Notes under the pieces: model-generated
What the model was told of the DNA's origin: nothing
Seen by the model: only the letters and a program-made list of their open reading frames with translations
Database searches by the model: none
Translations under genes and position numbers: made by a program
Shown here: piece after piece, positions 20,517 to 40,893 of the stretch
Position numbering within the stretch: position 1 is the first letter of the stretch
Layout of the letters: each line of letters starts with the position of its first letter
From: Mesorhizobium onobrychidis
GTDB taxonomy: Bacteria > Pseudomonadota > Alphaproteobacteria > Rhizobiales > Rhizobiaceae
Assembly (NCBI RefSeq): GCF_024707545.1
Contig: NZ_CP062229.1
Coordinates: 2,709,501 to 2,773,500, forward strand
Direction: 5' to 3'
Length of the DNA: 64,000 nt

Positions 20517-20525
20517 TGTATCGCC

Positions 20526-22052: not shown

Positions 22053-22076
22053 GCGTGAACAAAGCACAATTCCCGC

Positions 22077-22107
22077 TTGACTTCAAGTTAACTTGAACTT
22101 GTAGCAA
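22077..22107 (+). promoter_or_regulatory. SoxR-dependent promoter with SoxR box
   Basis: TTCAAGTTAACTTGAA at 22082-22097 is a perfect 16-base palindrome matching the SoxR-box core. A -35 element TTGACT (22077-22082) overlaps it. The weak -10 TAGCAA at 22102 is 19 bases away, the over-long spacing SoxR promoters use. It points towards the SDR and QueA-like genes. Confidence 0.85.
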
Positions 22108-22136
22108 CTGCAGTACAGATTGAAGGAGCACCGGCA

Positions 22137-22859
22137 ATGCAGACGAATATCGATCTTCAGGGACTTCGCGTGGCGGTCACGGGCGGCACATCCGGCCTCG
22201 GACTGGCGCTTGTGCGGCAGCTTGCCGAGCAGGGTGCGTCCGTCGCCTTCGTCGCCCGCACCACCGCGGACGTCGAACGCATCGCCGACGAGACCGGCGC
22301 GCACGGGATTGTCGGCGACGTCGGCAAGAAGGAAGACATCTACCCGATCGCGTTGCAAATGACCGCCAGCCTCGGCGGGCTCGACGTCCTGATCAACAAT
22401 GCGTCGAGCCTCGGACCTGTTCCTCTGGCGCTTCTTGCCGATACCGAGTGCGAGGAGTTGGAAAAAGCGCTCGCGGTCAATCTCGTCGGCGCGTTCCGGC
22501 TAACGAAAGCCCTGTTCGGTGCGCTTGCCGCGTCCGCACGCGAGGGCCGTGGCGCGCTGGTGATCAACATCTCCAGCGACGCAGCGGTGAACGCCTATCC
22601 CGGCTGGGGCGCGTATGGCGCGAGCAAGGCTGCTCTTGCCCATCTCACGGCGATTTGGGACGAGGAGGCGAAAGCCGACGGCATCCGGCTCCTCGCGCTC
22701 GACCCCGGCGATATGGACACCCCGCTGCACGCGCTGGCGCTTCCTGACGCCGATCCGTCGACATTGAAGCGCCCCGAAGTGGCTGCTGCCGAAATCATCG
22801 AAAAGATGCTCGACGCGTTGCCGGTCAGCACAACGATTCTCGCCGGGACACGCGGATGA
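22137..22859 (+). CDS. Short-chain dehydrogenase/reductase, SoxR-controlled
   Basis: The 240-residue protein is a classical SDR. TGGTSGLGLALVRQL is the cofactor loop, LINNASS the central motif, and YGASKAAL gives the catalytic Tyr-x3-Lys with a serine in NISSDA. The substrate is not readable; its SoxR promoter suggests reduction of a quinone or another redox-active toxin. AAGGAG is eight bases before the start. It overlaps the next gene by ATGA. Confidence 0.9.
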   Translation: MQTNIDLQGLRVAVTGGTSGLGLALVRQLAEQGASVAFVARTTADVERIADETGAHGIVGDVGKKEDIYPIALQMTASLGGLDVLINNASSLGPVPLALLADTECEELEKALAVNLVGAFRLTKALFGALAASAREGRGALVINISSDAAVNAYPGWGAYGASKAALAHLTAIWDEEAKADGIRLLALDPGDMDTPLHALALPDADPSTLKRPEVAAAEIIEKMLDALPVSTTILAGTRG

Positions 22860-23890
22860 TTGCCGCCGACCGTCCCGATCGGCGCTCCGCCAGGCTGTTC
22901 GTCGTCGAGGCAGACGGCACGATGCGCGACCTGCCGCGCGCTGGACTCGCGATGCTATTCGATCCCGGCGATCTGGTCGTCGGCAACGACGCCGCGACCT
23001 TGCCTGCCAGCTTGCACGGAACGCATGTCCCCAGCGGCGAGGCGATCGAGATTCGCCTGGCAGGTTGGCTGTCACTTCCCGATCCAACCCGCTTCGTGGC
23101 TATTGCCTTCGGCGCGGGCGATCACCGCACGCGCACGGAAGACCGGCTGCCTCCGCCGCCGCTGTCACCAGGTGACCGCCTCCGGCTCGGCCCACTGGAA
23201 GCCGTCGTAGAGCGCCTTCTCGACCATCCTCGCCTTCTCGAGCTGCGCTTCCCAGGCAACCGCGCAGCGGTACTTGCTGGACTGGCGCGGCACGGCCGGC
23301 CGATCCAATACGCGCATGTTCCCGAGCCGCTGGCCCTGTGGGATGTCTGGACGAAGATTGCCGCCCGGCCGGTCGCGTTCGAGGCGCCATCGGCAGGCTT
23401 TGCACTCGACTGGCGCACGCTCCAAGCCTGGCGTCGGCGCGGCGTCGGCTTCGCAACAGTCACGCATGCCGCGGGCGTTTCCTCCACCGGCGATCCCGCG
23501 CTCGACCTGCGCCTCCCTTTCGACGAGCCGTACCGCATCCCCGAGCACACCGCGGCGCAGGTTGCGCGGGCGAAGCTCCGCGGCGGCCGCATCATCGCGA
23601 TCGGCACGAGTGTAGTGCGCGCGCTTGAGGCGGCCGCCAGTCCCGCCGGGAATGTGCGTGCCGAAAATGCCATTGCGACAGGGCGCATCGCGCGGGACAC
23701 GCGGCTTCACGTGGTCGATGCTGTTCTCACAGGCGTCCACCAGCCCGGCGAAAGCCATTTCGAGCTCCTGCGTGCCTTTGCCGACGATGCTCTGCTCGCC
23801 AAGGCCTCCGCAGCCTTCACCGCGTACCGATACCGCACGCATGAATTCGGCGATTCCATGCTGCTCAATCGCCAACCGCTGCATCTATAG
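22856..23890 (+). CDS. QueA-family protein (S-adenosylmethionine:tRNA ribosyltransferase-isomerase paralogue)
   Basis: The 344-residue protein follows the QueA plan: an N-terminal SARLFVVEADGTMRDLP, then the split barrel, then THAAGVSSTGD and RIIAIGTSVVRALEAA, and near the end FHQPGESHF-like (VHQPGESHFELLRAF). True QueA transfers the ribosyl part of SAM to preQ1 in the wobble base of four tRNAs. This copy departs from QueA in its first 40 residues, and it sits in a SoxR-driven pair with an SDR rather than with tgt. It may be a second QueA used under oxidative stress or a relative with another acceptor. ATGA overlap with the SDR ties their expression. Confidence 0.8.
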   Translation: MIAADRPDRRSARLFVVEADGTMRDLPRAGLAMLFDPGDLVVGNDAATLPASLHGTHVPSGEAIEIRLAGWLSLPDPTRFVAIAFGAGDHRTRTEDRLPPPPLSPGDRLRLGPLEAVVERLLDHPRLLELRFPGNRAAVLAGLARHGRPIQYAHVPEPLALWDVWTKIAARPVAFEAPSAGFALDWRTLQAWRRRGVGFATVTHAAGVSSTGDPALDLRLPFDEPYRIPEHTAAQVARAKLRGGRIIAIGTSVVRALEAAASPAGNVRAENAIATGRIARDTRLHVVDAVLTGVHQPGESHFELLRAFADDALLAKASAAFTAYRYRTHEFGDSMLLNRQPLHL

Positions 23891-24661
23891 CGCGAACAGG
23901 ACCGGGCCGCCTCCTCCCTGACATGCGTCCATCATCGGTCCTGGAAGATTGGCGCATCGCCTCCACGGTGGCACGCCTGGACGCTGCATTCGGCGAGGCG
24001 CACTTCGATCTAGACTAGCAACCCGACGGCCCCCGCACCCCGCTGAAACAGCCCAGCGTATCCAGCCGATCCGGAAGTGAGCCACGTCGCTGTATGATCA
24101 AGACGTTCCCGATGCTCCTGGCTGAGGTCAATACCCTCGGCCAGTTTTGCGGTTCTCCGAGCTACCAAGCCGGCTTCCAGTGGTGGCGTACGTGAGGACA
24201 TTAAGCGACTAGGCCAAAGAAAAGGAGGCCGCCTGAAAGTTTAAATCCTACGCCAAGCTCGTAGGCTCAGACGCAGGTGACAGACTGCTGAAGGCTGACA
24301 AGACACGTAAGGCGGACAGTCCAAGCGACCAGCACGCGGGGAATTTGTTGAACCTGTGGATTGACAGTACAAAACAAGTGGCGTTGAATGAGTATTCTCT
24401 AAAAGATAGTAGCGGTGACGCTCTACAAAAAGGGCGGGCAGTTGAAGTACCGGTTTCAGTCGAACCATCGCGGAATCAGCGGGGCTGGGTCTGCGTCGTC
24501 TCCATACGACCTATAACGCTGAGCTTACTATCTCCATGTCGCTTCGCGCTAACTTGGTAGTGCATCGGCGAGATGTGAGCCTTATTGCCGGGTGACTCTG
24601 AACACTCTCCGCTGGACGGAGAACAGAGGGGGCGAAGCTATCACAAAGCGGGGGGCGCGGG
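23891..24661. other. Long gap ahead of the giant-gene module
   Basis: About 770 bases with no gene I can support. The 24,230-24,560 part has a plus-strand frame without a good start (about 100 residues, fairly hydrophilic) that could be a remnant, and a short minus-strand frame at 24010-24201. Base composition is richer in A and T than the flanks in the 24,340-24,560 part. The promoter of the giant genes must lie here, but no clear -35/-10 pair stands out. Confidence 0.45.
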
Positions 24662-27600
24662 ATGGTAGATGAACGCGAATGGCTGGACGACGACACGGAC
24701 GACGGCGCACGTTCCGATCGACGGAATTCGGGCGACTCACGTTCGCCCGTTTCAGGCAGGCACGGGAGAGCAGAGCTTGGCTGCGTCACGAGGCGCGACT
24801 TTCTCCTAGGCGGCGGCGCAACTCTCGTCGCTGCGCCACTCGCCGCCGCCGAAGCCCAAGGTTCATTCCTTGATGTCGCCTATGAGGATAGGACGCGCCG
24901 CAGCCTCGTTATTGCGTGGCTTGAAGCAGGCAAACGCTACGCTTGGACGTTGCCCGCTTCCACTTTCACTGACCCGGATCTGCCGAATGGGCGCGGCCGC
25001 TTCGTGCTGCGCCGTACAAATGATGGTTGGCGCGCCGACATCGCACAATGCGCGCTGCCCGGCAGCTACAATTTTGCTCTGCGCATCGAACTGAAATGGG
25101 ATCCGGCATTCGATCCGCAGAAGCCGGGGGCGGAGCCGCCTTCCATGTCCGTCGTCCTGCGTCGAGACACAGACATCCGCCTACAGAGTGGAAAGAACCT
25201 GATCGAATTCCTGAAAGCCGACCCAGCGAGTGGCATAGATGAAATCGGGGGCGATCTTAGCAAATCTCAACTCGCCGACCTGACGCGAACGCTGTTCGGG
25301 GGCTCGTTCGACGTCAGCAAAGCGAGCCAGAGCAGCCTTGCTTTTCACCGTGAACTTTACTGGAGACTGCGCGCCGGAAAAAAGCTGGCACGCGGCGAAC
25401 AGGAGACGCCGGTCTCCAAACAGAGCCGCTTCCGCGCCCTGTCGGATGAAGGTCTGTCGCTTCAATTTCGTGAATGCATATTCACGGTTTTTTCCGGCAG
25501 CAAGGGATCGGACGCGACGAAGGCTTTCATCCTCAATGAGAACGCCAAGGGCGAGGAACAGCAGGATGTGCGCGCGCTTTTTTCCGGCGATGGCGCACCG
25601 CCAGCGCCGGACAGCACTCTTTCGGACCCGCCCGATGGCGCAATAGGCCCGGCCGCAACCACATCTGAAGATGAGCGGCGCCTCGCACCGCGGGTGCTGT
25701 ATGCACTGGTCCGGCACGACGCCGAACAGACGAAGGCCAATCCTGCAGATGCCTGGACTGGTACGCTTGCGTTGGGTCGTCATTCCGGCGGAGAGCGCGG
25801 TACTCTCGCAATCCATGAAGGAGGGGACCCTTCGTTCCTTGGGTGGCGTAATCAAGGCGATCAAAGACCCGTTTTCGCCTTGCGTACGCTCGGGATGACA
25901 CTCGATTTGCGCCGCGATCAAGCTGCGGAGCCGAGCCGGTTTAGTGATCTTAAGGGGATGCTATGGCATGCCCGTGGTGAGGACGACAAACTCCGGCTGA
26001 TCGCCTCGCTGACGCCCACCAAGCGCAAGATTCGCATCGAAACGTATTTCGGCCGGTTCACCGTTGCACCATTGCCGCCAATAGCGCCGCGATCGGGCGT
26101 ATCCGCGCGCGTGCCGTCGATCCGAATCGGAGGCACAGGACCAAAGAACACCAGGACGCTCAACCATTTTGCCGCCCCGCTCGCGCTGGAGGAGGCTGCA
26201 ATTCCGCTCAGAAGCGCCCGCCTCGCCGAGATCGCGCGCCAGCGTGCCACCGGAGGGGATGTTTCTGTCGCTTCGCCTGCGGAACGTGCGTCGCGATTGT
26301 TCAGCCACCTCACATTCAATGAAGCGGAATGCCTTTTCCACATCGACAAGCTCGCGAGGCGCTTTGCGTGGATAGGCGCTCTCGCGCCGTCGACCAATCC
26401 ACCGCAGGCTGAGGCTCTCGTCCACATCGGGGCGACAAAAGCGTCGAACGACCTGCCGTTACCGGCGCGGCTATCACTCAGTTCTGCGTCACTTCTGGTG
26501 CGCCGGCCTGCCGACCTTCTGGCACTGAAATATCGCTTCCAGGATCTGTTGCTCGAATATGCCGAGTCCGGATGGTGGGTGGTACCCGATCGGCGGATCG
26601 CCGCGTTTGTGCCGAGGGGCTCGCCGAAGCCTTCTCCGGACGTACCGCTGGTCTGCAAGGACGAAGCTCCACTTGCCAACAATCCCGACCGATACGAAAC
26701 GCGCCAGGATCCGCGTCCGTTGCTGGTCGTGGAGTTCCCGCCGCAACATATCGCCGAGCGGACATACCTGCGTCAGTTCGAGGCGGAGCCGGATCTTCCG
26801 CTGCCGCCAAAGGGAACCGAGGTCACCGAAGCTGAAGCAGAAATTCTGCGCTCGGCCGATGAAAATACCCGGTTGAATAGGCGGACCGACGACATCGCTA
26901 GAAGGCAAACGGCTGGAATGTCGGCGAATGACCCGTATCTGAAGTTTTTCAACGATTTCCAAGTTGCAATCGACGAAGCCAACAAGCGTGACAATGTGGT
27001 CATCGGTTGGAAATCCAACATCCCGAAGGATCAACGCATCTATGTCGGGCCTGCCTATCTCGATCTTGAAGCGGCGCGGGTAGCTCGCAAGCTGGCGCGG
27101 AAGCTGGCTGCAACGACGAATGACCTCGCCACACCGGAAAAGCGGGCGCTAGCTCTCAGAATCGTGCCCGAGATAGAGCTTCCGGCGACCGTCATCGCCA
27201 ATCTCCGCAAGGACTTCGACATTCATGCGGATGTCAGCGAGGGCTTTCCTGAGGCTCCTTTAGAGCAATCCCCTGAGCCCCCTACTGATGCAAACAAGCG
27301 CGACGCGTATTTTGAGGCCCGCGAGGACCTCCGCGAACGCCTTGATCCACGCTACGCGTCCTTCAGAAAGATCTACAACGATGCTTCTGCTGTACCCGAG
27401 CAGCTTAAGCCGCTGAGGGGAAGACGCAATGTGATCGCGACGGTCGAACTAAATGCGAATCCGGTCGTGGCCGCCAAAGCGGTTCTGGCGGTTGTTGCCG
27501 ATTTCGACGCGAAGAATCCGATCGACGAACCCTTCGAGATTCCGAGTGAGGCGCGTGTCTCCGGGGGTTCACGTCTTGTTTTCAGAATACCGGCCGACGA

Positions 27601-30600
27601 TTTCGAAGCCGGACGGCCGGACGCACGCGAGGGAGCACCTGCCGGTGCGTTTCCATTCACGATCGAGGCTTTGACCAACTGGGGTGCGTTCGACCTCGCC
27701 GTCGTCCGGCGTGCCGAGAAAGTGTTCGAGCCGCTCGTCGGGTGGCAGGACACCGCGCTGGAGGACCTGGATGAAGAGGCTGCGGAGGACGCGTACCGTG
27801 ATATCGCCAACGGCCGGTTGCCGCCACGCTGGGCGCGGCAAGAAACGCGCGACGAGGCGGCACGGCTGCTGCACCAGCGAATCTCACGCGGCGATGCATG
27901 GGCGGTGCGCCGTGACGAACAGCGATCGCTGACCGGCACAACCGACTGTCCCAGACCGCTGGCGCGGCTTGGATCGGTGACTGGGCCACAGCGTATGGCG
28001 GAGATCGCCACGAGCGTGCAACCGCCAAGCCTTTTTGAAACCTCGATTGAAATACCCTTCCGGCTGATGCTCTCGCCCGCCCAGGACGCCGCATGGCGCA
28101 CGCCGCTCGGATTGCCGCCGATCGCTAAGCTGACGGCAGCGAAAGACCAGGGATGGGCGCAGGGCGCGCCGGTACCGCTGTGGTTTGCCCAGCTCGATGA
28201 AGCGGCGGGCTCCTCCAGCATGCGTGCGGTTTGGTCGCCGGATTTCCGGCCGGAAGCACTGCTCGATCCGGAGCTCGGCGGGCCGCCCCACGGCCCGTGG
28301 GCTCCATGGGCGATGGCGCGAGAGGTTACGGCACGCAATCCGTACAGCGAGAAAGAGGATGTATGGCCGTTACCAGGACAGGAGCCCGATCCGAAGAAAA
28401 TGGCGCCGGAACGCTTCCGTGCCGGACTTGACGTAGCGGACCGTCACGAGCTTGTGGCGCTGACCTCACTGCATGGGTTGCCGGTGCGTGGGCGTCGCAA
28501 ACAGGACGGCACCCTGGCGGACGGCAGCCAGATCAATCCGCCATCCGGTTTCAAGCTGCGCCACGCAGCTACCGAAGCGCTCAAGGAGGGTCAACCGGAG
28601 GACGATTATTCCGCGATCTACCGCCCGCAACCGTTAGGTGTGAGCGAACTCACGCTGACCGCTCTTGGCGGCAGCTTTGACGCCGACACGAATTTCGTTC
28701 CCCCGGCATCCGCCAAGGTTGTGCCGGTCGGTGAGTGGGTGAAAACGCACAAGCCCGGAAATTCGCTGTTCGACGCGTTTTCGATCGAGCGGTGGCAGCA
28801 GAATACCCGTCTTGGACGCGATATCCGCGTTGAGGTCGCGTACAAGGGCTTTCTCTTTCCTTTCGGGCACCGCGCATCGCTGGTAAAGCTGACCGAGCGC
28901 CGCTTCATGGCGGGACCAGGCGGCCTCGCCGCCGGTCCTGTCGCATACCTCGTGCAGCGCTTCTTCCTGCGCATCGGTACCCCGCTCAAAACATTCCCGG
29001 CGCAAAGCCAACCGAATGGCGGGCGGCGCTGGCCGGTCGAGCGGCTGGAAATCCTCACGCGCGTTACACCTGATATCCTAGATCCGGCCGACGCATCACC
29101 CTCCGATGTGAGCAAGCAGTTTGAAGAGGCGGGGAACGGTCGGATTTTCCTGCGCCAAAACAAAAATGACATGCAGGTCCTGCCGGGTCTCGTTTTCTGG
29201 CCCCGGGTGCGCGCTCGTGAAGGCGGCGAGGTTAATTTCGAGCTGCAGATCGATTCCCGGGGCGCACGGGCGCGCCTGCCGCTGATCTTCGTGGACAATA
29301 CCGCGGCCAACGACGTCCGCACCATGCGGATACTGACGCAAGAGTACAACCGTCTCAAACGTGACTCCCAAGATCCCGAAAAGACAATCGTCGATCCGCG
29401 CCGCGTCCTGGGACTCGGCAGCAGCAAGCGCCGCTACGCTCCCGAGAGCGAACCGGACGGCACGAGTTTCGAAACCCAGCAATGGGTGATCGAGGCCGAA
29501 GGAAGGGAGCAGGCGATCCCGCTGATCCAGGATATCAAACGAAACGTCAAGTTCGATAATTCCAACTTTGATTTTGGCGCGCTGCTGCAGGGCGTGGATC
29601 AACCGCCGTTCTATCCGGTGATGGCGACCGCGCAAATGCGCATCGCCCAATTGGACCGGTTGCTTGGCCAAACTACCGAGCACGTCACAGTCCGTTTCGA
29701 TCCGGAGTACCAGGCGTTCGGCTTTCCCAAGGACGAACGACTTAATGTTCCTGGCAACGGCGACCCAAAAGAGGCCGCGGCAAAAACCGACGTCTATCTT
29801 GATTTTTTCAAGGCGGTGGAACTCGATCCCGGCGTTGCAGGCGATCGGATAGGCGGTGCGGTACGCCCAAAAACGCCCTTGGTCGCGGTCTCGCGCAGTC
29901 GCGGTCCTGTCGGCAATAGCAATTACATCGGTAGGACGGGAGTGGCGCGCACTTTCTCCGATTTGCCGCCCGCATCGACCGGGCTCGATCATCCCGATCC
30001 GGAAAGCTTCTTCGGTGATGCGACAGTCCTGGGCATCATCGATTTGAAGAAGGCCATCCAATTCCTTGTCGGCGCGCTGTCGAGCACGCCGCAATTCAGG
30101 GAAGTCACGCAATATACGTCCGCGATGCTCACCGACCTTTCGCAGGAGGGTGCCGCGGATGCGGGAGCGGCGGTCGCGAAAGTACGCGACCGACTGCTGA
30201 TCCCGATGCGGGAGACTTTGCTTACGCTCGCGCGCCAATTTTTCGACGCTGTGAAAAAAGAAAATGAGCAATTCGACGAGGAAATAGCTCTTGTTCGTAT
30301 CGAACGGCTGTATCCCGACGTCGGTAGGTCCTACCGAGAACTCAAGGATGCGCTCGAGCAGGCCATAGCCGCAAGTGAAACCGTGCACGATGCGGCGCCC
30401 CTGCTCGGGGCCTTCGCCAGCATCTACAGCGCCGGACGGCGGTTCCTGATGGCGATCGAACGTGTCGCCAACGATCCGCTGGCTCCTGTGCACGAGGCGC
30501 TGCGTGAGGCGTTCAACACGGAAATTCGCAACCTTATCGAGTCGGCCCAAAGGATTCTCGGTGGACTCGAGAAAGAGCTTGTCGATGCGCTGAAGAAGGT

Positions 30601-33600
30601 CGAGGCCGATGTTCGGGTCAAGCTGGGGAAAATGTTCTCCCCAGCGGCGGCGGCATTCGCGACATGGCGGCGGCTTGTGTTCGCGCTACCCGGAGCCCAC
30701 TCCATCCCGGCTCCTCTGCAGGGTCAGGCTGTGGCCGTCGACAAGAAGATCGAAGAGCTACTGGAGAAAGCCGCGGCCGAATCCAAGTTTTTCGAGGTGC
30801 TGGCAAAGGAAGGACTTCCGAAAGCCGCGCAGAAAATCGGCGAAAAATTCGATGAAGCGCTGAGGCAGGCTATCACCGGCGCCGGCGACGACTTCGACAA
30901 GGCATTGCAAGCCGCGTACGGTGACTGGAAGGTCGCGGCCGAACAGGAAGGCGAGCGCATTCAAGGCGTGCTTTATGCAGCCGCGTTCGAGGTCATTCGT
31001 GCGCTGCTTGTAGATACGCAGAAACTCGCCGAGCAGGTCGTGAAAGGCGGGGTCACGCTTCGCGACATACTCGGTCTCATCCAAGACGTGGTGAGCGACG
31101 CACTCGATCTTGTCTCGCGGCTGATCGAGTACGGTCTCGGCGAGGCTGGCGATCTGTGCGGCAAGATCGTCGACACGCTACTGAAGGCAATCGCCGACTT
31201 TTCTCCGCCGGCGCCCACGAATGTCGATGACAAATACACCGACATGCTCGGCAAGCTCGACCAGGCCAAGACGGCCTTGGACAAGATCGGGCTCGGCGCC
31301 GACGTCCTGAGCATCAAGACGGAGCTCAGTGTCGCATTTGGCGCTTTCATCAAGGTACGCGATGCTTATGGCCGAGCGGTCGCCGAGGTCGCCAAGCTGA
31401 AAGCCGACGTCTGCCTCAAGGCCGATCCGGAGCGCCTGCCGCGAGACGCGCTGGCCGCTCTCGGGCAAATCCGAAAAACACTCATCGCCAAGCTTAATGC
31501 ATTTATCGTCACTTTCAGCACGACCAGGGCCGTGGGCAACGACCTGCAAGCGTTGATGGCCAAGATCACCGGTACGAGTAATGAAGATAAGGCCGCCCGG
31601 GCTGCGCTTGCCGAGGCAGCCAGGTTCGCGGCCAAGACAGCGATGGCGCTAGGTGAGTTCTCGCTGGCAGCGACTTCCCTCGGAGAGATGACCGGCGGCA
31701 AGATCCTCGACAAGACCCGGACATCGCTAGAAAGTCTGAAGGGCACTCTTCCCGGCACCGGTCTCGACAAGGAACTCAATGCCTTGATCGAGGTGATCAA
31801 CCAAGCGGGTGCGGCCGCCCAGACGATCAAGACCGACCTTGAAAAAACAATCGCCGGCATCGGCGCCGTTGCCTCGAATCCCGCAGTCCCGGGCGACGAA
31901 GCGAAGTATGTCGCTGACTTGTTGGTGGCCGTGCACCAACTGCCGGGTCTGCTCGATAAGGTTGGCACCAAAATCGTTGGGCAGTTGGAGCAGTTGGTCA
32001 TCAGCGGCGGAAAGGTCAATGACAAAGTTGTCAATGGACTCGCATCGTTCTTGCTCGGTGGCGAGCCCTATCTCAAAGGGATCGTTTCGATCGTCTCCGA
32101 CGCCGCCGGCAGCCTCATTGGCTTTCTTGCCGACCTGCAGTCCGAACTGGTCAGGATACGCAACGACTTCTGGAAGCAGTTCGGCGGAGGGGACAAAGGC
32201 TCGTCGCCACCAACGGGCATCGGCGACGATCTGGCGGATTTCACATTCAAGAAGCTTGCCGCATTGCTCCTGGTGCCATGCCCGGACCCTGACCCGGCAT
32301 GCACAGCCGTTCCCTGCCTGATCTGCGCGCCTGCGGGAATCGATCCGCCGGACAATGACTATCTGACGGCCGAAAAAAACCAGTTGCTCGCGCTGAAGAC
32401 GGCATTGGGCAATCCCGGTACGATCGACAAAAACACACTTGCTGCCCTGCGTGGGCTGTTCGATAGATGGAGCAGCGACAAGGGCTCGGCGCAGGAGCTC
32501 GCGAGACGCCTGAACGACGCGGCCGCAGTCGTGCTCAGCGGTGATTTAAAGCGCATCGTCGATCTCGAGGGTGCGCGCCGGCGCATCGAAGCCAAGATCA
32601 AGGAACTGGTGCCGGCGAAGATCGTGCTCAACTACGATCTGCAGGCGGGCATGATCGATGTGCCCCCGGTGTTCCTGCCACGATCCGGCAGCCAGATCAC
32701 GCTCTCCGCCGGTGCAGTTTACGATTTGCTGGAGCCCAATATACCGCCGCAGCTGACCGCGAGTTGTCGGCTGGACCCGTTCGACATCAACCTTTTCGAT
32801 GTCGTGACGCTGCTGTTCGACGGAGCGCAATTCGTCAATGAAAGCGGCAAAGGGTCCGATTTCAACATTGTCTACAAGGATTTCGAGCTTGGTCCAAACG
32901 CCGAGTTCCTGAAGCCGCTCCAGGCGCTGATGAACCCTGGCGGCAGCGGGCCATATGTCCGACCGAGCAAGGATGTCCCCGGCATCGAGGCCGGCTACAG
33001 CCTCGATCTAGGCATCATTACGATCGGGACCGTGTCATTCGCGAACGTCTCGATCAACGCGTCTTGCGTGCTGCCTTTCAACGGCGCACGGGCAACGTTC
33101 GTTGCCTCGATCGGCCGGGAAGATCGGCCTGTCCTGCTCTCTATCGCGCCCTACACAGGAGGCGGGTTTCTGGCGCTCTATGCCGATGCCCAAAGGCTGC
33201 TGGGATTTGCCGCCTCGTTCGAGTTCGGCGGTGGGGGCGCCTTCCAATTCGGACCGCTGAGCGGTCAGGGCCGGATCACCACCGGCATCTATCTCCGCAA
33301 CCTCACCAAGGTGGTCGACGGCAAAGACGTAGACGACTGCATTATTGAAGGTTTCTTCTATGCGGGCGGCGAGGCGCATATCGCCTGCTTTGCGATCAGC
33401 GCCACGCTGGTGGTACGCGTCGGTCACCGATCCGGCGGCAGCATGTACGGCTCGGCTGTTTTTACCTTTTCGTTCTCGATCGGCTTCGCCAAGATCCGCT
33501 ACCAAGTCGGCGTGCAAAAAAATATGAGCAAGGGATTCTCCGGCAGCCGCAGCACGGCCGCTCTGATCTCGGGTGACATCAAGATCAATACAGATGGCCC

Positions 33601-33691
33601 CGTCGTGCATTCGCGCGCCCGAGCGATTCAAGAAGACTGGGTAACTTACCAGACATACTTTTCAGACATCGACGGATTCCCCGCATCATGA
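24662..33691 (+). CDS. Giant 3,009-residue exported protein of unknown function
   Basis: No family is recognised. Residues 44-67 form a Tat signal (TRRDFLLGGG, then a hydrophobic stretch ending APLAAAEAQG) after an unusually long 43-residue acidic and polar lead. Residues about 70-1780 look mixed and beta-rich with many Trp/Pro turns. About 1785-2640 is a long Ala/Leu/Lys/Glu-rich helical region that could form coiled coils. At 2540-2555 is a cysteine cluster C-x6-C-x4-C-x2-C. The last 365 residues are beta-rich and glycine-rich (GGGFLALYADAQ, FEFGGGGAFQFG), recalling end domains of other large uncharacterised bacterial proteins. The next gene starts inside its stop codon (ATGA). It is probably a large structural or surface protein. 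Confidence 0.85.
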   Translation: MVDEREWLDDDTDDGARSDRRNSGDSRSPVSGRHGRAELGCVTRRDFLLGGGATLVAAPLAAAEAQGSFLDVAYEDRTRRSLVIAWLEAGKRYAWTLPASTFTDPDLPNGRGRFVLRRTNDGWRADIAQCALPGSYNFALRIELKWDPAFDPQKPGAEPPSMSVVLRRDTDIRLQSGKNLIEFLKADPASGIDEIGGDLSKSQLADLTRTLFGGSFDVSKASQSSLAFHRELYWRLRAGKKLARGEQETPVSKQSRFRALSDEGLSLQFRECIFTVFSGSKGSDATKAFILNENAKGEEQQDVRALFSGDGAPPAPDSTLSDPPDGAIGPAATTSEDERRLAPRVLYALVRHDAEQTKANPADAWTGTLALGRHSGGERGTLAIHEGGDPSFLGWRNQGDQRPVFALRTLGMTLDLRRDQAAEPSRFSDLKGMLWHARGEDDKLRLIASLTPTKRKIRIETYFGRFTVAPLPPIAPRSGVSARVPSIRIGGTGPKNTRTLNHFAAPLALEEAAIPLRSARLAEIARQRATGGDVSVASPAERASRLFSHLTFNEAECLFHIDKLARRFAWIGALAPSTNPPQAEALVHIGATKASNDLPLPARLSLSSASLLVRRPADLLALKYRFQDLLLEYAESGWWVVPDRRIAAFVPRGSPKPSPDVPLVCKDEAPLANNPDRYETRQDPRPLLVVEFPPQHIAERTYLRQFEAEPDLPLPPKGTEVTEAEAEILRSADENTRLNRRTDDIARRQTAGMSANDPYLKFFNDFQVAIDEANKRDNVVIGWKSNIPKDQRIYVGPAYLDLEAARVARKLARKLAATTNDLATPEKRALALRIVPEIELPATVIANLRKDFDIHADVSEGFPEAPLEQSPEPPTDANKRDAYFEAREDLRERLDPRYASFRKIYNDASAVPEQLKPLRGRRNVIATVELNANPVVAAKAVLAVVADFDAKNPIDEPFEIPSEARVSGGSRLVFRIPADDFEAGRPDAREGAPAGAFPFTIEALTNWGAFDLAVVRRAEKVFEPLVGWQDTALEDLDEEAAEDAYRDIANGRLPPRWARQETRDEAARLLHQRISRGDAWAVRRDEQRSLTGTTDCPRPLARLGSVTGPQRMAEIATSVQPPSLFETSIEIPFRLMLSPAQDAAWRTPLGLPPIAKLTAAKDQGWAQGAPVPLWFAQLDEAAGSSSMRAVWSPDFRPEALLDPELGGPPHGPWAPWAMAREVTARNPYSEKEDVWPLPGQEPDPKKMAPERFRAGLDVADRHELVALTSLHGLPVRGRRKQDGTLADGSQINPPSGFKLRHAATEALKEGQPEDDYSAIYRPQPLGVSELTLTALGGSFDADTNFVPPASAKVVPVGEWVKTHKPGNSLFDAFSIERWQQNTRLGRDIRVEVAYKGFLFPFGHRASLVKLTERRFMAGPGGLAAGPVAYLVQRFFLRIGTPLKTFPAQSQPNGGRRWPVERLEILTRVTPDILDPADASPSDVSKQFEEAGNGRIFLRQNKNDMQVLPGLVFWPRVRAREGGEVNFELQIDSRGARARLPLIFVDNTAANDVRTMRILTQEYNRLKRDSQDPEKTIVDPRRVLGLGSSKRRYAPESEPDGTSFETQQWVIEAEGREQAIPLIQDIKRNVKFDNSNFDFGALLQGVDQPPFYPVMATAQMRIAQLDRLLGQTTEHVTVRFDPEYQAFGFPKDERLNVPGNGDPKEAAAKTDVYLDFFKAVELDPGVAGDRIGGAVRPKTPLVAVSRSRGPVGNSNYIGRTGVARTFSDLPPASTGLDHPDPESFFGDATVLGIIDLKKAIQFLVGALSSTPQFREVTQYTSAMLTDLSQEGAADAGAAVAKVRDRLLIPMRETLLTLARQFFDAVKKENEQFDEEIALVRIERLYPDVGRSYRELKDALEQAIAASETVHDAAPLLGAFASIYSAGRRFLMAIERVANDPLAPVHEALREAFNTEIRNLIESAQRILGGLEKELVDALKKVEADVRVKLGKMFSPAAAAFATWRRLVFALPGAHSIPAPLQGQAVAVDKKIEELLEKAAAESKFFEVLAKEGLPKAAQKIGEKFDEALRQAITGAGDDFDKALQAAYGDWKVAAEQEGERIQGVLYAAAFEVIRALLVDTQKLAEQVVKGGVTLRDILGLIQDVVSDALDLVSRLIEYGLGEAGDLCGKIVDTLLKAIADFSPPAPTNVDDKYTDMLGKLDQAKTALDKIGLGADVLSIKTELSVAFGAFIKVRDAYGRAVAEVAKLKADVCLKADPERLPRDALAALGQIRKTLIAKLNAFIVTFSTTRAVGNDLQALMAKITGTSNEDKAARAALAEAARFAAKTAMALGEFSLAATSLGEMTGGKILDKTRTSLESLKGTLPGTGLDKELNALIEVINQAGAAAQTIKTDLEKTIAGIGAVASNPAVPGDEAKYVADLLVAVHQLPGLLDKVGTKIVGQLEQLVISGGKVNDKVVNGLASFLLGGEPYLKGIVSIVSDAAGSLIGFLADLQSELVRIRNDFWKQFGGGDKGSSPPTGIGDDLADFTFKKLAALLLVPCPDPDPACTAVPCLICAPAGIDPPDNDYLTAEKNQLLALKTALGNPGTIDKNTLAALRGLFDRWSSDKGSAQELARRLNDAAAVVLSGDLKRIVDLEGARRRIEAKIKELVPAKIVLNYDLQAGMIDVPPVFLPRSGSQITLSAGAVYDLLEPNIPPQLTASCRLDPFDINLFDVVTLLFDGAQFVNESGKGSDFNIVYKDFELGPNAEFLKPLQALMNPGGSGPYVRPSKDVPGIEAGYSLDLGIITIGTVSFANVSINASCVLPFNGARATFVASIGREDRPVLLSIAPYTGGGFLALYADAQRLLGFAASFEFGGGGAFQFGPLSGQGRITTGIYLRNLTKVVDGKDVDDCIIEGFFYAGGEAHIACFAISATLVVRVGHRSGGSMYGSAVFTFSFSIGFAKIRYQVGVQKNMSKGFSGSRSTAALISGDIKINTDGPVVHSRARAIQEDWVTYQTYFSDIDGFPAS

Positions 33692-36600
33692 AAATTCCGG
33701 TCAATATCGCCGCTCAGGTGGTTGCTGCTGGCATCTACGGTGATCGCGCGCGCATCACGCTGGCGCTCACGCCTGTTTTCGATAAGGACAACGGACGCTA
33801 TGACCTGGCCAATTGGCCGCAGGAAATCGAGCAGCGTTTCCTGGCCAATGCCACTGACGGCGACAGCGGCGTCGAAGCGAAACAGTTTCGCCTAGAAGTC
33901 GTTCCCATCAAGGAAAAGCAAAGCTGGCGGACACCAAACATATTCAGCGCGCCCAAGCCGATTGAGCAGGGGGCCGACAAATTGAAACGGGTTGGATCGC
34001 CAATCGACGTCGGAAAACTCAACAAATACTGGCATTCCGTAATGGAAGGCGCAGACAAATTGGGCTTTGAACACCTCTACAAAGCCCTCGATCCGGCCAC
34101 GGAGGTGCGTGATCCGCTCGAATACGCAATGCGGCCGCTAGATGGAATGGCTGATAAGATAGTACCGGACATCCATGGCACGTCGCGGGCCAAGGCCGTT
34201 CAGGAACTCGTGCTTGAGCGCGGAGCGCATATTCTGGCCGGGTTTGGAAACAGAACCATCGTAACGCGATCTCCCGCCAAAGGCATAAAATCTCTAAGCG
34301 CCCAGATAAAGCAATGGCGCAAAGACCGGATTGGGCCATGGCCTCAGGACAAGAAAAAAGAACTGACGGCCGCAACATTGGCTGCCTTGGCGGAGGACGA
34401 CGCCAGCTGGGATGCCCTTTGTGCCAGTCGCCGTCGCGCTGACAAGTTCGCAGCTGCGCGCTTGGTATATCAGGACCTGCAGGCAACCTCGAAGCAAGCG
34501 ATTTGCGCACTCGTCAAGGCACACCAGTATTTGCTTTCGCGCACGCCGCTTGCTGCTGCAATGCATTTCAGCGCTGACAATCTCGGAACAACGACTGTTG
34601 TGAACGACCCGCTCCCCGAAGCAATCGCCGCTTACCGACTTGCATCACAAACCCCGACTTTCGATGGCGCAAAATCCGACGTTGCCCCGGTAACCGATGA
34701 TCCTGGTCTCGAGTTCGCGCGTCGTCGTCTGCATATGCTGCAGAGCAATCCATCGCTCGGCCGGCTTTTCCGGTTCGTCGTGGACTTCGAATGTCCCGTA
34801 ACCGAGCTTGCAAAGGCCGCTAACGGCGCGGCGCAATACGATGAGACTGTGCTCGATCGCGATCCGGACGGTCCGGAGAAACTGCCTGATGCGGTGGCAC
34901 AGAAAGCGCGTTTCCTGCTGATCAGGTTCTGCAAGGACAAGGGCCCGCGGCTTTGGAGTGCGGCCAAGCTTCGCATGCCGCTGACAGGAGCGAAGCAGCA
35001 AGCGGCTGGCCATTTCCTACCATGTACGCGCGAGGAGATCGACGCGCGCGCCATGGACCGAGACTGCAAGCAGGAGTGCGCGGATCCTAAGAGCCAGGCC
35101 TGCAAGGATTGCCTGGAGTGCAGCAAGAGCCTGCGCGAGCTTGCGGTTGCTGAGCAGGTCGACGGGATCGTGGACCTGGGGCAGCGCTGGGGGGCGGAAC
35201 ACCGTTACGAAGTCATCACGCTTGATCCCGTCGTCGCGACGGCGGCGGAAGATCAAAAGGTCAAACGGGCTGAGGAGAACCGGCACACTCTCGACAACAC
35301 GAAGGGGCTATCCAAGCAGCTGCATAAAGCATTGGAGGAAGACCAGAAAGGGACGCATCGCGGCGGCGGGCTCGCGCTTGTGGATCGCTGGCGCCAACTA
35401 CACGGGATGGGACGCCATCTTGACTCGCGGGGACAGAAGCAACAGTACGACCAGAAGGCCGACGTCGTTCTGGATGCATCCGATCTCGTGGCGGGATACA
35501 AGCTCGATGTGGGCGTTCTCGACCGCGGTGATGATGTGAATCGCCGGCGCTGGCACACGCTGATGCACCGCACCGTTGCCTATACGCCGACAAAAAACGT
35601 ACCGGCGGACTTGGGTGCGGAACTCAACGCATACATCACCAAGCTCTATCCCGATGCAGCAACTCGGCGGGATGCCGAAGACGGGCAACTGCAAGCGCCG
35701 GCAGCGTTACGGGATTGGATTACATCCTTCATGCGAACCAGTGTTGCGGATTCGCCTCGCGACTGGATCACGGTGTTCATGGAGGAGGTGATCGGCGCCT
35801 GGCGGGGCGATCCGCTCGGTCTTGCATGCGGGGTCGAGAGTTACAAACTTAGCCCGGACGATGTGCGCATCGATGTCAGCTACAATCTTCCGACGGGGCC
35901 GGCCTTGACGCCACCGCCATTACGCTTTGGCTGGCCTTATCATTTCGGTTTGCGCGCCTTCTTTGCCGGTGGCGTTTCGATGCCGCTCGACCGAGCGCTT
36001 GGCCATTACGAAAAGGACTACGGCGGCGATCTGGTGCGGCCTTCGGTGCCAGAAGGTGGGGCCGAGTTCAAAAGGCACGAGCGTATCGACGCGCCGGCCA
36101 TTGCGATTCCAGATTGGATGTTCGGAGCGCTTAAAACGCAGAAGAACCACACCGACGTTGCATTGCGGGGACGCTTCCCGGTTCCGCAAGCCGGTCGCAT
36201 GGTCGTGCGCAGTTTCGACGATCCGACGAAGACAAATCTGAAGATCGCGGGCGTTCCGGAGACGTCCGACGAGCAAGGCCGGACGCCAGGTGTCGGCTTT
36301 GATCGTCGCGTGCTGATGGCGCCGCCGGTTTCGCTCCAGTTTGCGGCGTTGCATGACGCGTTCCGCGCCAAGAGTGGAAACGACATCGAGCGCGACGTGA
36401 AGATGTGCGAGCCACGCGTACTGCTCGATCCGCCTGATCGAATAAATAACCCGTTTGAGACTACTGCGGTCGACGGCGAAGAAGAAAAGGTAGAATACAC
36501 GCCGGTTCTTTCGCCCAAGGACTCGGTTTCTCAGGTTTGGGGCAACATACGTGTTGCGTGGCGTCCATTCACCGTCGCGTCGCGGCCGCGGGGTGGGCTC

Positions 36601-39585
36601 CGCGGAGTGGATCATCGTGCTGCCTGGGGCGGCTTTCCAGTCTATCGCGCCAAGGCTTCAGCGGGGTTGGTCAAACCGGTGTTCGGCGCCCCCGTCGTGA
36701 GGCCTGCGGCAATGACCGACGAGGGCGAAATTCTTCATCGCGTCAAGGGTGACGGAGAGTTGATTTTCGACAATGACCCCAAGAGGACACGGCTTCTCTG
36801 GAGTGCCGTCGGCGTTTTCGGAAAAGAGGAGGGTCAAAGCGATCGAGCGGGAGCGGCCGTTTTCCGTCCTTTGACAACGGAGGGTAAGAAAGCGATCGAG
36901 CGCCTGCCCTACTATCCTGACCCGGCCGCGACGACCCTGGTGATCGAAGTCACGATCCGTGGCCAAGAGAAACCGCATCAAGAGGAACCGCATCGCACGG
37001 AGGTGGCGTTTTACACCGACACGGAACTGAAGCGAGCTGCGCCGGCGGACTATCCTGATGCGATACCCGTCGTACTGGACGTCATTCGTGGAAACGGCAT
37101 CGGAAAGGTGATCAGCGATGCGCGCAAAGTAAAGTATAGCCAAGTCCCGCACACGCCTCCTCCCGGTCAGTCCATACCTGTTGCGTATGTGCAGGTGACG
37201 CTCCCCCCTGGCGCAGAAGCAAACATTCGGTGCTGGTGCGTGCCAAGCGTGACGTTTCTCCGCTACGTGTGGGGTCAGATGGACTCCGTTGCAACATTGG
37301 CGGTTGCGCGAGGAATCAAGAAGGCTGGCGAAGAAATGGACATCGGCACGCTTTCGGTCGCCACGGTCGATGGAGCTTTCGTCAAGGGGCTGGCGCAACT
37401 GGCGTCAGTCAATTTCCCACAGGTCAAGAATGCGAAGTCGACAAAAATCAGGCTAGGCTTTGCAGGTCTCCCGATGCCATCGGATGAACAAATGCTTGCC
37501 TTTGCCGAAGATCTCCGCAAGCGCATGCTCGAGATGCCGCTGTCTGAGATCGCGTCGGTTGCTGAGATTGAGGCCGTACACGCGGTTGACCTGCCGAAGC
37601 ATGGGCCGAGGGTCGTTGCCAGCAAGAAATGGCAACTGCTGCGTGCCACCGCGGAGTCAATTGATAGTCTTCTCGGACCGGAAGAGCAGTGCAAGGCCAC
37701 CCTCGGCGACCGTTGTGTGTCCGATAACTGGTCGATGGAGAACCAGATGCCGGATGCGGTGGGCGTCTTGATCGACGGATCTTTGACGGTGCACGGGCCC
37801 TCCACCGAGGCAGTAGAGATTTGCGCGCGCGGAACTGCGGCGGCGCGCGGGCGCTTCGATGACGTCGAGCGCGGGCGTTCGCGTGACGATCGTGCCCGAG
37901 GTCTGTGGCCCAAGCCGGACGCTCAGGAGCCGATCAAGGCAAGTCGGCTTTTCGGATTCGATCCAGCGGATGATGGGTCAGTCAGTTTCGAACCAGAGAC
38001 CGTGACCTTGTTGCGCGTCGAAGGGTTTCTGCCAGGCACGATAAACGACACAAGCGGCGAGGTTCGCATCGATCTGCTCGACTTCCAACGTAATGCGAAG
38101 GCAATCGAGCAACGAAAGGGTGAACAGCTTCAGGCTAACGATCCGCCGTTACGCGCCTCTCGCCCTGCGGCATTCCCTGATACGCGCGCGCGCTGGATCG
38201 AGATTTTCGCCGTCGCGATCTCGCGCCACGCGGCCGCGCTGCGCACGCGGTACGGGGAGCTTCCGGAAGTACTCAGTGAACCCAAAACAGTCCAACCCAG
38301 CGCGACAAAGGACGAAAAGGAGAAGGCTGAACTAGCAATCAGCAAAGTGATCATGGACCGGCGATGGCTGCCAGCAACGGTGCGTCCGGCTCGGGTGGTT
38401 TCGCTCAGCCCTATCCCGGCATTCGCCTGGAGCGACAATGTGCCGACGCCCACCAGCGCCAAGATCCCGTCCGTCTTCGTCAGCCGGACGGTGCGGGTTC
38501 GCATCCGCGTGCAACGGCCGTGGTTTTCATCCGGCGAAGGCGAGCGGCTCGGCGTCGTTATCTGGCCACCGAATCTGTTCGACAAAGACGTGGGCAAAGT
38601 GTCCCAGGACGTGGTGAGGCCGGAGCCGGCAGACCGCAAGGAGATCAATCTGCGTGCGTTGCCCCCCGACGGTAGCCTCATTCAGGAACTGCAAGATGCT
38701 GATCTGGGAACAGGCGGCGCCTGGGTTACGCGGTGGGGGGCCGATCCCATTCGAACCAAGGGCGGGGTGCAAGGCTGGCTGCTCTCGAAGGACAATTTCC
38801 CCGGGGTGACCGAACAGGCGGAGTTTACCAAGGCGCCCCAGGAGCATCCAAAGGATGCGGTGTTGGTGAAAAATGTGTTGATGCCGGTGCCCGTCGATGC
38901 CGATGCCGCGGAACTGCGGGCAGCGCAGCCGCCTGGCGGCTTCATGGCGGTATCGATCATCACCTATGCGCCGCGCTTCGATCCCGCCCAGGAGATCTGG
39001 TACGCGGACATCGACCTGAACCCGTGCGGCGCGGTGTATCCATTCGTGCGGTTGGGACTGGTGCGATACCAGCCGAACGCGCCGCGCGCACTGCAGATGT
39101 CAGAACCGGTTGTCGAGTGGGCGCAGGTCATGCCTGAGCGAAAGCTGAGCGCCAGCGCCAGATATGTCGACAAAGATCGCAAGCAGATTGAGGTCACCGC
39201 CACACTTGAGGGAACTGCGTCGGGACCCGACGTAAACAATGGCCACCCGGAAACCTCTCCCGCGCAGGCGCCACGGGTATACTTTTCTCTCCTGCAGCGC
39301 CGCATCGATGCGGACGACGCCGTCCCGGACTCCGAGCTTGTTTTTGCAGGACCACAAATCGTTTCGCCGGGTTGCGGCTGTGCAAGCGGGACGGCCGTCT
39401 TCCAGATGAGCGATGAGGAGTATCGTAGCTATGAGTGGTCGATCTTTGCAGAGGAAGTGGATCGACTACGGCCGGCGAGCTATTTCGACGAGCCGCGCTA
39501 CGGAACGATCGCGGATACGAATTTCGTCGATACTGGTCCACGCTTCACCGCGCGGCTGTCACTAAAAAACTTGAAGGTTCAATGA
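33688..39585 (+). CDS. Giant 1,965-residue partner protein of unknown function
   Basis: No family is recognised and no signal peptide or membrane segment is seen. The start overlaps the previous stop as ATGA, so the two giant proteins are probably made together in a fixed ratio. A cysteine cluster lies at residues 460-478 (C-x3-C-x7-C-x2-C-x2-C, around CKDCLECSK), with other pairs as CWC near the middle and GCGC near the end. The first third is partly helical and the rest looks beta-rich. The segment from 750 to 820, with FGLRAFFAGGVSMPLDRAL and later FKRHERIDAPA, has the look of a conserved core. It could be a co-exported partner, an assembly factor or a second subunit of the same large structure. 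Confidence 0.83.
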   Translation: MKIPVNIAAQVVAAGIYGDRARITLALTPVFDKDNGRYDLANWPQEIEQRFLANATDGDSGVEAKQFRLEVVPIKEKQSWRTPNIFSAPKPIEQGADKLKRVGSPIDVGKLNKYWHSVMEGADKLGFEHLYKALDPATEVRDPLEYAMRPLDGMADKIVPDIHGTSRAKAVQELVLERGAHILAGFGNRTIVTRSPAKGIKSLSAQIKQWRKDRIGPWPQDKKKELTAATLAALAEDDASWDALCASRRRADKFAAARLVYQDLQATSKQAICALVKAHQYLLSRTPLAAAMHFSADNLGTTTVVNDPLPEAIAAYRLASQTPTFDGAKSDVAPVTDDPGLEFARRRLHMLQSNPSLGRLFRFVVDFECPVTELAKAANGAAQYDETVLDRDPDGPEKLPDAVAQKARFLLIRFCKDKGPRLWSAAKLRMPLTGAKQQAAGHFLPCTREEIDARAMDRDCKQECADPKSQACKDCLECSKSLRELAVAEQVDGIVDLGQRWGAEHRYEVITLDPVVATAAEDQKVKRAEENRHTLDNTKGLSKQLHKALEEDQKGTHRGGGLALVDRWRQLHGMGRHLDSRGQKQQYDQKADVVLDASDLVAGYKLDVGVLDRGDDVNRRRWHTLMHRTVAYTPTKNVPADLGAELNAYITKLYPDAATRRDAEDGQLQAPAALRDWITSFMRTSVADSPRDWITVFMEEVIGAWRGDPLGLACGVESYKLSPDDVRIDVSYNLPTGPALTPPPLRFGWPYHFGLRAFFAGGVSMPLDRALGHYEKDYGGDLVRPSVPEGGAEFKRHERIDAPAIAIPDWMFGALKTQKNHTDVALRGRFPVPQAGRMVVRSFDDPTKTNLKIAGVPETSDEQGRTPGVGFDRRVLMAPPVSLQFAALHDAFRAKSGNDIERDVKMCEPRVLLDPPDRINNPFETTAVDGEEEKVEYTPVLSPKDSVSQVWGNIRVAWRPFTVASRPRGGLRGVDHRAAWGGFPVYRAKASAGLVKPVFGAPVVRPAAMTDEGEILHRVKGDGELIFDNDPKRTRLLWSAVGVFGKEEGQSDRAGAAVFRPLTTEGKKAIERLPYYPDPAATTLVIEVTIRGQEKPHQEEPHRTEVAFYTDTELKRAAPADYPDAIPVVLDVIRGNGIGKVISDARKVKYSQVPHTPPPGQSIPVAYVQVTLPPGAEANIRCWCVPSVTFLRYVWGQMDSVATLAVARGIKKAGEEMDIGTLSVATVDGAFVKGLAQLASVNFPQVKNAKSTKIRLGFAGLPMPSDEQMLAFAEDLRKRMLEMPLSEIASVAEIEAVHAVDLPKHGPRVVASKKWQLLRATAESIDSLLGPEEQCKATLGDRCVSDNWSMENQMPDAVGVLIDGSLTVHGPSTEAVEICARGTAAARGRFDDVERGRSRDDRARGLWPKPDAQEPIKASRLFGFDPADDGSVSFEPETVTLLRVEGFLPGTINDTSGEVRIDLLDFQRNAKAIEQRKGEQLQANDPPLRASRPAAFPDTRARWIEIFAVAISRHAAALRTRYGELPEVLSEPKTVQPSATKDEKEKAELAISKVIMDRRWLPATVRPARVVSLSPIPAFAWSDNVPTPTSAKIPSVFVSRTVRVRIRVQRPWFSSGEGERLGVVIWPPNLFDKDVGKVSQDVVRPEPADRKEINLRALPPDGSLIQELQDADLGTGGAWVTRWGADPIRTKGGVQGWLLSKDNFPGVTEQAEFTKAPQEHPKDAVLVKNVLMPVPVDADAAELRAAQPPGGFMAVSIITYAPRFDPAQEIWYADIDLNPCGAVYPFVRLGLVRYQPNAPRALQMSEPVVEWAQVMPERKLSASARYVDKDRKQIEVTATLEGTASGPDVNNGHPETSPAQAPRVYFSLLQRRIDADDAVPDSELVFAGPQIVSPGCGCASGTAVFQMSDEEYRSYEWSIFAEEVDRLRPASYFDEPRYGTIADTNFVDTGPRFTARLSLKNLKVQ

Positions 39586-39677
39586 TCCATTCCGGCCAAT
39601 TTTCGTACAGGCACCATGGTGGGCGAAGCTAGTTGCTTAATCGATCCCGAAAAAGGAAACAGAAGGGGTAGAATAGA

Positions 39678-40460
39678 ATGGAAATTCGTGACTCAGCTGT
39701 TACCCGCACGGCCGGCTTTGAAGCATTTGTCGAGCATTTCTATCTTGATACCGTCGGAAAGGTAACGATCGGTTATGGGCGTATGATCCCGACCGCCGAT
39801 GCAGCCGCGGCCCTTCCTCTCAAAGACAGTGGGAGCGACGCCGAGGAAGACGCCAAACGAGACGAGTGGACGCTCATCAAGTCGAAACCCGCAGGGAAGC
39901 CAGCATCCTACTACAAGCAGTTCACGAAACTAACGCTGCTGGAATCGGACGCAAAGGCCATGCTTCGCGAAAATCTCGAGGGATCTGCTTCCGACCTCAA
40001 GACTCGCTTCCCCGACCTCGATGACTATCCAAACGATGCTCAGGACGCGCTCCTCGACATGATGTTCAATCTTGGTTTGCCAAAATTCGCAAAGGCGAAA
40101 TGGCCGAAACTGTTTGCCGCTGTTGAGCAAAAGGACTGGATGACGGCGGCCACCGAAAGCAATCGACCCGATGTGCAAGATTTGCGCAATGAGGCTATCC
40201 ACGACTTGTTCGTAAGTGCAGCAGGAGCTTCAATGAAGCTGCATCTTGCGGCACAAATTGTGAGCGAGTCATTCAAGGATCAGATAAGTCAATTGTCGAA
40301 TTTTATCTCCACGGGGCAAGGAGTCGAAAAATTCTTCCCCAACGGAATAACGAAGATCAAGTTGGACGTGAAAGCGGGCGGTGTTGAAATCGATTTCGAG
40401 ATAAGCGGACCGGAGCAAGGAAACCTCCTGTCCTCACAAGGCGCGGGAAGTCGTAGGTGA
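39678..40460 (+). CDS. GH24-type muramidase (phage-lysozyme fold)
   Basis: The 260-residue protein opens with a T4-lysozyme-like active site. Glu15 (GFEAF), Asp24 (YLDTVG) and Thr30 (TIGYG) have the same spacing as Glu11, Asp20 and Thr26 of T4 lysozyme. Later ALLDMMFNLGLPKFAKAKWPKL resembles the family's helical lobe. It should cut the MurNAc-GlcNAc bond of peptidoglycan. No signal peptide is present, so it must leave the cytoplasm by another route or act inside a particle. About 90 C-terminal residues beyond the lysozyme fold are unassigned. It lies 92 bases after the second giant gene, with a purine-rich ribosome site, and probably shares its transcript. Confidence 0.82.
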   Translation: MEIRDSAVTRTAGFEAFVEHFYLDTVGKVTIGYGRMIPTADAAAALPLKDSGSDAEEDAKRDEWTLIKSKPAGKPASYYKQFTKLTLLESDAKAMLRENLEGSASDLKTRFPDLDDYPNDAQDALLDMMFNLGLPKFAKAKWPKLFAAVEQKDWMTAATESNRPDVQDLRNEAIHDLFVSAAGASMKLHLAAQIVSESFKDQISQLSNFISTGQGVEKFFPNGITKIKLDVKAGGVEIDFEISGPEQGNLLSSQGAGSRR

Positions 40461-40613
40461 CTATGAGCTTGTAAACAGGAGTAATCTAGTTTCTGGATGC
40501 TCTGGCTTTACGCTCGCGTTCCTAGACTAGAGATGAGCGGTTGCCTGCTGGCCAGGTTCCGACACACAAAGACGGCTTGCAACTTTCACCCGCACTAGCC
40601 TGACGACTGGATC

Positions 40614-40868: not shown

Positions 40869-40893
40869 GGTGCTCTCCTGTTCGATGGCTCGT

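Follow-up and report, generated by a model that had tools for sequence, protein, structure and literature searches.

Paired giant protein families with a Tat-type signal and an exchangeable hydrolase slot in Mesorhizobium onobrychidis and other bacteria

Among the described systems closest to the locus reported here are polymorphic toxins, including the umbrella toxin particles of Streptomyces (PMC11062931). The twin-arginine translocation (Tat) system transports folded proteins and recruits TatA to its substrate, according to a second source (PMC13323110). Here we analysed a 64,000-nucleotide stretch of the Mesorhizobium onobrychidis genome (contig NZ_CP062229.1, positions 2,709,501 to 2,773,500; hereafter the window; the two contigs of this genome total 7.5 Mb) and describe two adjoining genes for giant proteins, P1 and P2, which are followed by a muramidase gene, P3. 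As in polymorphic and umbrella toxins, large constant proteins stand beside an enzyme that varies by locus and that P1 and P2 would carry; unlike in those systems, the enzyme is encoded by a separate gene and not as a C-terminal domain, the recognised enzymes are wall hydrolases or proteases, and no cognate immunity gene lies beside P3, with small secreted proteins found at other loci. Relatives of the umbrella subunits (ALF-repeat UmbC, trypsin-like UmbA and UmbB) were not seen, and Umb1 gave only a Foldseek E of 0.23 at a probability of 0.10. The locus appears to encode an undescribed type of bacterial surface machine, which may be a weapon. Its features, in window positions and approximate residue ranges, are as follows (loci are denoted by L and genomes by G, each with a number).

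24662..33691, + strand: P1, an open reading frame (ORF) of 3,009 amino acids (aa), encoding a giant protein with a Tat signal
24785..24859, + strand: twin-arginine signal of P1, residues ~42–66; strict motif, with the Pfam TAT_signal match below cut-off
30122..32602, + strand: long helical region of P1, residues ~1821–2647, in an AlphaFold2 model
32930..33565, + strand: predicted C-terminal beta-meander of P1, outer-membrane-barrel-like, residues ~2757–2968
33688..33691, + strand: ATGA overlap of the P1 stop and P2 start; the same four-base overlap recurs in relatives
33688..39585, + strand: P2, the giant partner of 1,965 aa, without a signal peptide and with a beta-rich C-terminal half
39133..39576, + strand: predicted C-terminal Ig-like beta-sandwich of P2, residues ~1816–1963
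39678..40460, + strand: P3, a GH24 muramidase of 260 aa without a signal peptide, the occupant of a variable slot
21420..40612, no strand: segment missing from genome G020, which has 221 bases between collinear flanks

The positions of the three ORFs, their overlap and the 92 bases between the end of P2 and the start of P3 agree exactly with the original prediction, an earlier reading of the same DNA. The ORFs are not due to chance because full-length relatives of both giants exist (best identity 78% for P1 and 83% for P2). Neither giant matched anything above chance in Pfam, PHROGs, PADLOC, NCBIfam or PDB sequences, with the exception of the sub-threshold TAT_signal of P1, and the earlier description of two proteins without a recognisable family thus holds in these collections. 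Their families and arrangement were also not found in the family libraries or literature searched; we provisionally regard both as new to those sources and infer their function. P2 is directly preceded by P1 in 45 of 48 assessable loci, or in 42 of 45 without the near-identical L014, L028 and L043; these counts leave out the repeats L070, L071 and L076, L057 (the remainder of L056), the second of the P2 fragments in L050, and L015, L030 and L041, in which P2 lies at a contig edge. The same order was found in 7 of 7 assessable later loci; L124 and L125, where no member of either family was called, L127, which lies at an edge, and L129, a repeat of L038, are set aside. Gaps between the two genes are mostly small or overlapping and reach 519 bases in L038, and the P1 gene is split in L012, L018, L020, L028, L039 and L044. 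Pairwise similarities of P1 and of P2 are correlated (Spearman’s rho 0.808, 47 loci; 0 of 999 permutations). By gene order and similarity, P1–P2 alone is the fixed unit, a conserved two-gene module. In L058 (1856–13998), the gene after a distant P1 relative encodes a protein of 2,375 aa that escapes the P2 profile and is possibly another type of partner.

P1 carries a Tat-like signal, TRRDFLLGGGATLVAAPLAAAEAQ, from residue 43; the Pfam TAT_signal model scores 13.6 bits on P1 against a cut-off of 22.7, and matches 1 of 22 distant relatives (E 0.0047). A strict test, using our own pattern of an N-terminal twin-arginine motif plus a hydrophobic stretch, was passed by 39 of 48 P1 and 0 of 120 P2 sequences, queries included. 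By eye, seven of the nine P1 sequences that were missed start downstream of the motif, and P0031 has a motif that escaped the pattern; a looser test gave 40 of 48. When only P1 ORFs that start inside the fetched locus are counted (n = 30, two repeats included), 21 pass the strict test. The signal that had been read in P1 is therefore present and recurs in relatives, and the motif tests also bear out the lack of a signal in P2. TatA-like tblastn matches lie beside the pair in six loci, never more than 1.2 kb from where P2 ends; at E 1e-4, these queries have no match elsewhere in the 1.5 Mb of loci searched. Four of these ORFs are intact (L053, L057, L072 and L073), and Pfam confirms TatA in two slot proteins and in L073. 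Genomes with an intact module tatA (G035, G447 and G502) have three TatA/B/E matches each, and G000, G001, G003, G020 and G499 have two. Because the motif recurs and tatA adjoins some copies, Tat export of P1 is likely, as a prediction from sequence; P2 and P3, which lack signals, would then be co-exported with P1.

Such co-export recalls Tat ‘hitchhiker’ complexes with TatA paralogues, in that P1 alone has a twin-arginine signal and an extra TatA lies beside some copies. It differs in that no redox-enzyme family was matched and in the size of P1, which to our knowledge is beyond that of known Tat substrates. TatA paralogues of C. jejuni have reportedly featured in a study on Tat substrates (PMC4148689).

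The gene after P2 is less constant. A same-strand gene follows within 700 bases in 36 of 56 loci (window included, repeats dropped), and 11 of the 56 have a Pfam-matched hydrolase gene downstream of P2, as follows.

GH24, same strand as P2: the window and L011
Amidase_6, same strand as P2: L012
M10 matrixin, same strand as P2: L034, L054 and L057
M35, same strand as P2: L051, L072, L073 and L123
C70, same strand as P2: L036

Scores above cut-off were seen for all of these except L054 and L057, for which the listing gives only the best E among the three M10 members (1.5e-14). Another gene stands between P2 and the protease in L051 and L057. In L027, an M35 gene lies on the strand opposite P2. 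The L049 occupant has Tlde1 and YkuD matches below cut-off (E 0.003 and 0.008), and those of L016/L017 and L046 are cysteine-hydrolase-like by eye only. Other occupants are mainly small family-less proteins, many with a heuristic signal peptide, and include TatA. Near relatives by P2 carry differing enzymes (Amidase_6 in L012 versus GH24 in L011, L014 and the window) or occupants (L046 versus L049). The co-occurrence survey, set beforehand as a refuting test, thus overturned the fixed three-gene module of the original prediction: the third gene does not stay with the pair, and the muramidase is one of several slot occupants. The recognised hydrolases act on peptidoglycan or protein, and the slot families listed (25 of 28) include no nuclease and no toxin that targets nucleotides; this points to targets outside the cytoplasm.

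P3 is by sequence a GH24 lysozyme/muramidase of predicted activity, as had been proposed, with a PF00959 match above cut-off (34.3 bits versus 22.3; E 3.3e-8). E15, D24 and T30 are almost invariant in an alignment of 13 sequences, in a Glu/Asp/Thr spacing that we take to be the GH24 catalytic motif. P3 shares this family and spacing with GH24 phage-type lysozymes and differs from them in a C-terminal extension of ~90 aa and in its position after a giant pair instead of in a recognised lysis cassette. It has no export signal of its own. Among its 47 relatives, some are longer, with a second C-terminal part that has a sub-threshold NLPC_P60 match in P0203, a sub-threshold CHAP match in P0207, and in P0178 what is presumably an M15-like motif, where there is no Pfam match. 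Within the limits used, no same-strand gene follows P3 in the window; the genes that come next lie on the opposite strand.

The protein searches, which scored the best ~8,000 candidates, found at least 48 P1 and at least 127 P2 family members, queries included; among the source names listed, relatives are named ‘hypothetical’ or ‘uncharacterized’. A contig scan of genomes found 39 loci in Alpha-, Beta- and Gammaproteobacteria, Occallatibacter (Acidobacteria) and metagenome-assembled genomes (MAGs) of Chlorobiota/Ignavibacteriae, and 12 plasmid records match. Occurrence is sporadic: the module was found in 8 of 146 genomes of the window’s genus, in 5 of the 397 genomes sampled from an order and in 2 of the 385 sampled from a class, each count including the window’s own genome, and in 19 of 265 genomes of the genus of G772 (taken as Bradyrhizobium; several fragmentary only, the window’s genome not being part of this count). 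In the relative G020, window positions 9750–21419 and 40613–43323 are collinear at 96.8% and 95.8% identity, and 221 bases without a match to the window stretches compared stand in place of the intervening 19.2 kb. The module therefore sits in a segment that comes and goes; the genes lie where they had been placed, and the variable segment, at about 21420–40612, is larger than the locus first outlined. No repeats were found at its edges in the window and G020 stretches compared.

We favour, at about an even chance, a Tat-exported giant envelope assembly that delivers or displays an exchangeable extracytoplasmic hydrolase, most likely against other bacteria. P1–P2 would be a two-gene module, conserved yet horizontally variable, that encodes a very large extracytoplasmic assembly, in which P1 would be exported folded through Tat, probably in a complex formed in the cytoplasm with signal-less P2, joined in some loci by a signal-less enzyme. 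The long helical region of P1 may span or project from the envelope, and its C-terminal beta domain may anchor P1 in, or dock it to, the outer membrane. The gene after P2 would often supply a swappable hydrolase, GH24 here and other wall hydrolases or proteases elsewhere, and the assembly would deliver or display it, most likely targeting other bacteria. The sequences themselves show the conserved pair, the Tat motif, the additional tatA near some copies, the exchange of third genes and the lack of the segment in a relative; the barrel-like C-terminus comes from modelling, and we infer the P1–P2 complex, its co-export, its surface location and the antagonism.

The third gene could instead encode an assembly factor and no effector, opening the wall (GH24, amidase) or processing the giant proteins themselves (proteases) for a trans-envelope or surface structure made of P1–P2, as the specialised lytic enzymes of other envelope machines do. 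This would suit the barrel-like P1 C-terminus and the heuristic signal peptides of several slot proteases, and an immunity gene beside P3 is neither needed nor seen. However, the enzyme class shifts among loci from wall hydrolases to metallo- and cysteine proteases, occupants differ even among near relatives where an assembly step is expected to be constant, and P3 has no export signal. Mainly because the enzyme class changes and the pair does not, we prefer delivery or antagonism and consider a dedicated assembly role doubtful. Wall cutting for placement, as suggested originally, suits the GH24 and amidase variants and not the M10, M35 and C70 proteases.

An AlphaFold2 model of P1 residues 1812–3009 (mean pLDDT 68.2) shows a long helical stretch and a glycine-rich beta C-terminus, bearing out the helical middle and glycine-rich end described earlier. 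The C-terminus appears barrel-like, with outer-membrane barrels as the best match of the model. P1 differs from autotransporters (type V secretion) in having, like most of its family, a Tat-type twin-arginine signal with a negative Sec-type signal test, in its giant partner P2, in matching no autotransporter family in Pfam, and in its last ~45 residues, which lie outside the modelled sheet. The best Foldseek E-values (2.2e-3 to 1.3e-2) belong to microsomal triglyceride transfer protein and lipovitellin, and 2 of 22 distant P1/P2-family sequences have an Apolipoprotein match (PF01442; best 9.1e-8). The helical region and beta-meander could form a lipid-binding cavity with its hydrophobic face inward, like that of large lipid transfer proteins, the pair moving or binding lipid or another hydrophobic ligand across the envelope and the downstream enzymes being unrelated passengers. 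A soluble beta domain of this kind would suit folded Tat export and remove its tension with an outer-membrane barrel; overall we judge such a carrier unlikely.

Descent from a phage, tailocin or contractile injection system that had an endolysin, whether as a remnant or in altered form, is highly improbable: P3 matches an endolysin PHROG (3e-9) and helical P1 weakly matches a tape-measure family (phrog_167, E 0.47), but P2 has no relatives in 50,697 phage records (tblastn), none was confirmed among 30 viral-contig stretches, neither giant has a PHROG match above chance, the Tat signal recurs in the P1 family, and a search with P2 gave no convincing match to viral structures. P1 and P2 also have no sheath, tube, baseplate, portal or capsid relatives above chance in Pfam and PHROGs, and no structural family of phages, type VI secretion systems (T6SS) or extracellular contractile injection systems (eCIS) appears among 25 of 71 Pfam families listed for 42 neighbour proteins.

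Several observations weigh against the assembly that we favour. Tat export of a folded protein of more than 300 kDa would be exceptional and a true outer-membrane barrel normally travels unfolded via Sec, so the Tat signal and the barrel are in tension. The P1 model has a pTM of 0.35, and with Foldseek alone nothing in the PDB matches it at E ≤ 0.001. Nine of the 30 P1 ORFs noted above fail the strict Tat test (L046, L048, L049, L055, L012, L075, L121, L126 and L128), some being fragments or near misses and L046 and L049 being Burkholderia and Pseudomonas short forms; of the 51 genes called in the window, three besides P1 pass it, and the looser test flags 4 of 120 P2 sequences. The TatA match of L054 is 27 residues only; that of L026 is on the opposite strand and holds a stop, and PF02416 does not find it in G499. 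P2 lacks an adjacent P1 in L037, L047 and L054, and the genes nearby in L054 are similar to IS21 genes seen at other loci. Occupation of the slot is not obligatory, as no same-strand gene was called within 700 bases after P2 in 20 of the 56 loci, one of them at a contig edge and at least one (L021) with an occupant that the gene caller overlooked; many occupants have no family match, and one is DUF362 (by its sequence L020). The antagonistic particle proposed originally is the better match to a variable slot, and yet no immunity-like gene follows the muramidase here. Of the earlier interpretation, the exported or surface assembly stands, through the recurrent Tat signal, the tatA beside some copies and the barrel-like C-terminal model, and the fixed three-gene module does not.

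Further families and neighbours were recorded around the pair. A small secreted cysteine family (..CSCGPDFC..) follows P2 with M35 in L123 (5198–5656) and L051 (17889) and without it in L120 (15337), L121 (15244) and L128 (4490–4930), and could be an inhibitor or immunity family. Members of another family share a CYNYACD-type motif (L046 11356–12183, L052 154–978 and L013 27–476); this family, which lies after the pair in one locus and before it in two, is cysteine-hydrolase-like by eye, with no credible Pfam match in the two scanned (L046 and L052). The slot of L048 (10867–12822; an Ignavibacteriae MAG) holds a signal-bearing protein of 651 aa without a Pfam match, outer-membrane-barrel-like by eye. 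Genes for a MerR regulator, a short-chain dehydrogenase and a divergent QueA-like protein (PF02547) at window 21618–23890 also lie within the segment missing from G020, which has part of them elsewhere (window 22075–23907 at 88%); a second QueA-like copy lies elsewhere in the host genome (91%). Dpd-type genes (7-deazapurine in DNA) occur near the pair as annotated dpdE, F, G, H and J in L050 (20178–33994; Agrobacterium vitis plasmid), a DpdA match in L017 (15976–17088) and a helicase in L049 (13380–16040) similar to DpdF of the A. vitis plasmid, and may reflect shared islands only. Restriction-like genes (HsdR N-terminal domain, restriction endonuclease and DUF4062) lie downstream of the pair in L052 (20653–32284; Rhizobium plasmid).

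At a minimum, these results define two widespread, unannotated giant families in close partnership, with a Tat signal that recurs and a slot for exchangeable hydrolases. Tentatively, they may represent a new class of delivery machine: a two-protein carrier, assembled in the cytoplasm, exported whole by Tat (aided in some hosts by a dedicated TatA), held at the outer membrane by a barrel-like domain and equipped with interchangeable enzymes that cut wall or protein. If the reading that we favour is true, Gram-negative soil and plant-associated bacteria would possess a new secretion or antagonism machine, and the Tat pathway would move assemblies far larger than its usual cargo.
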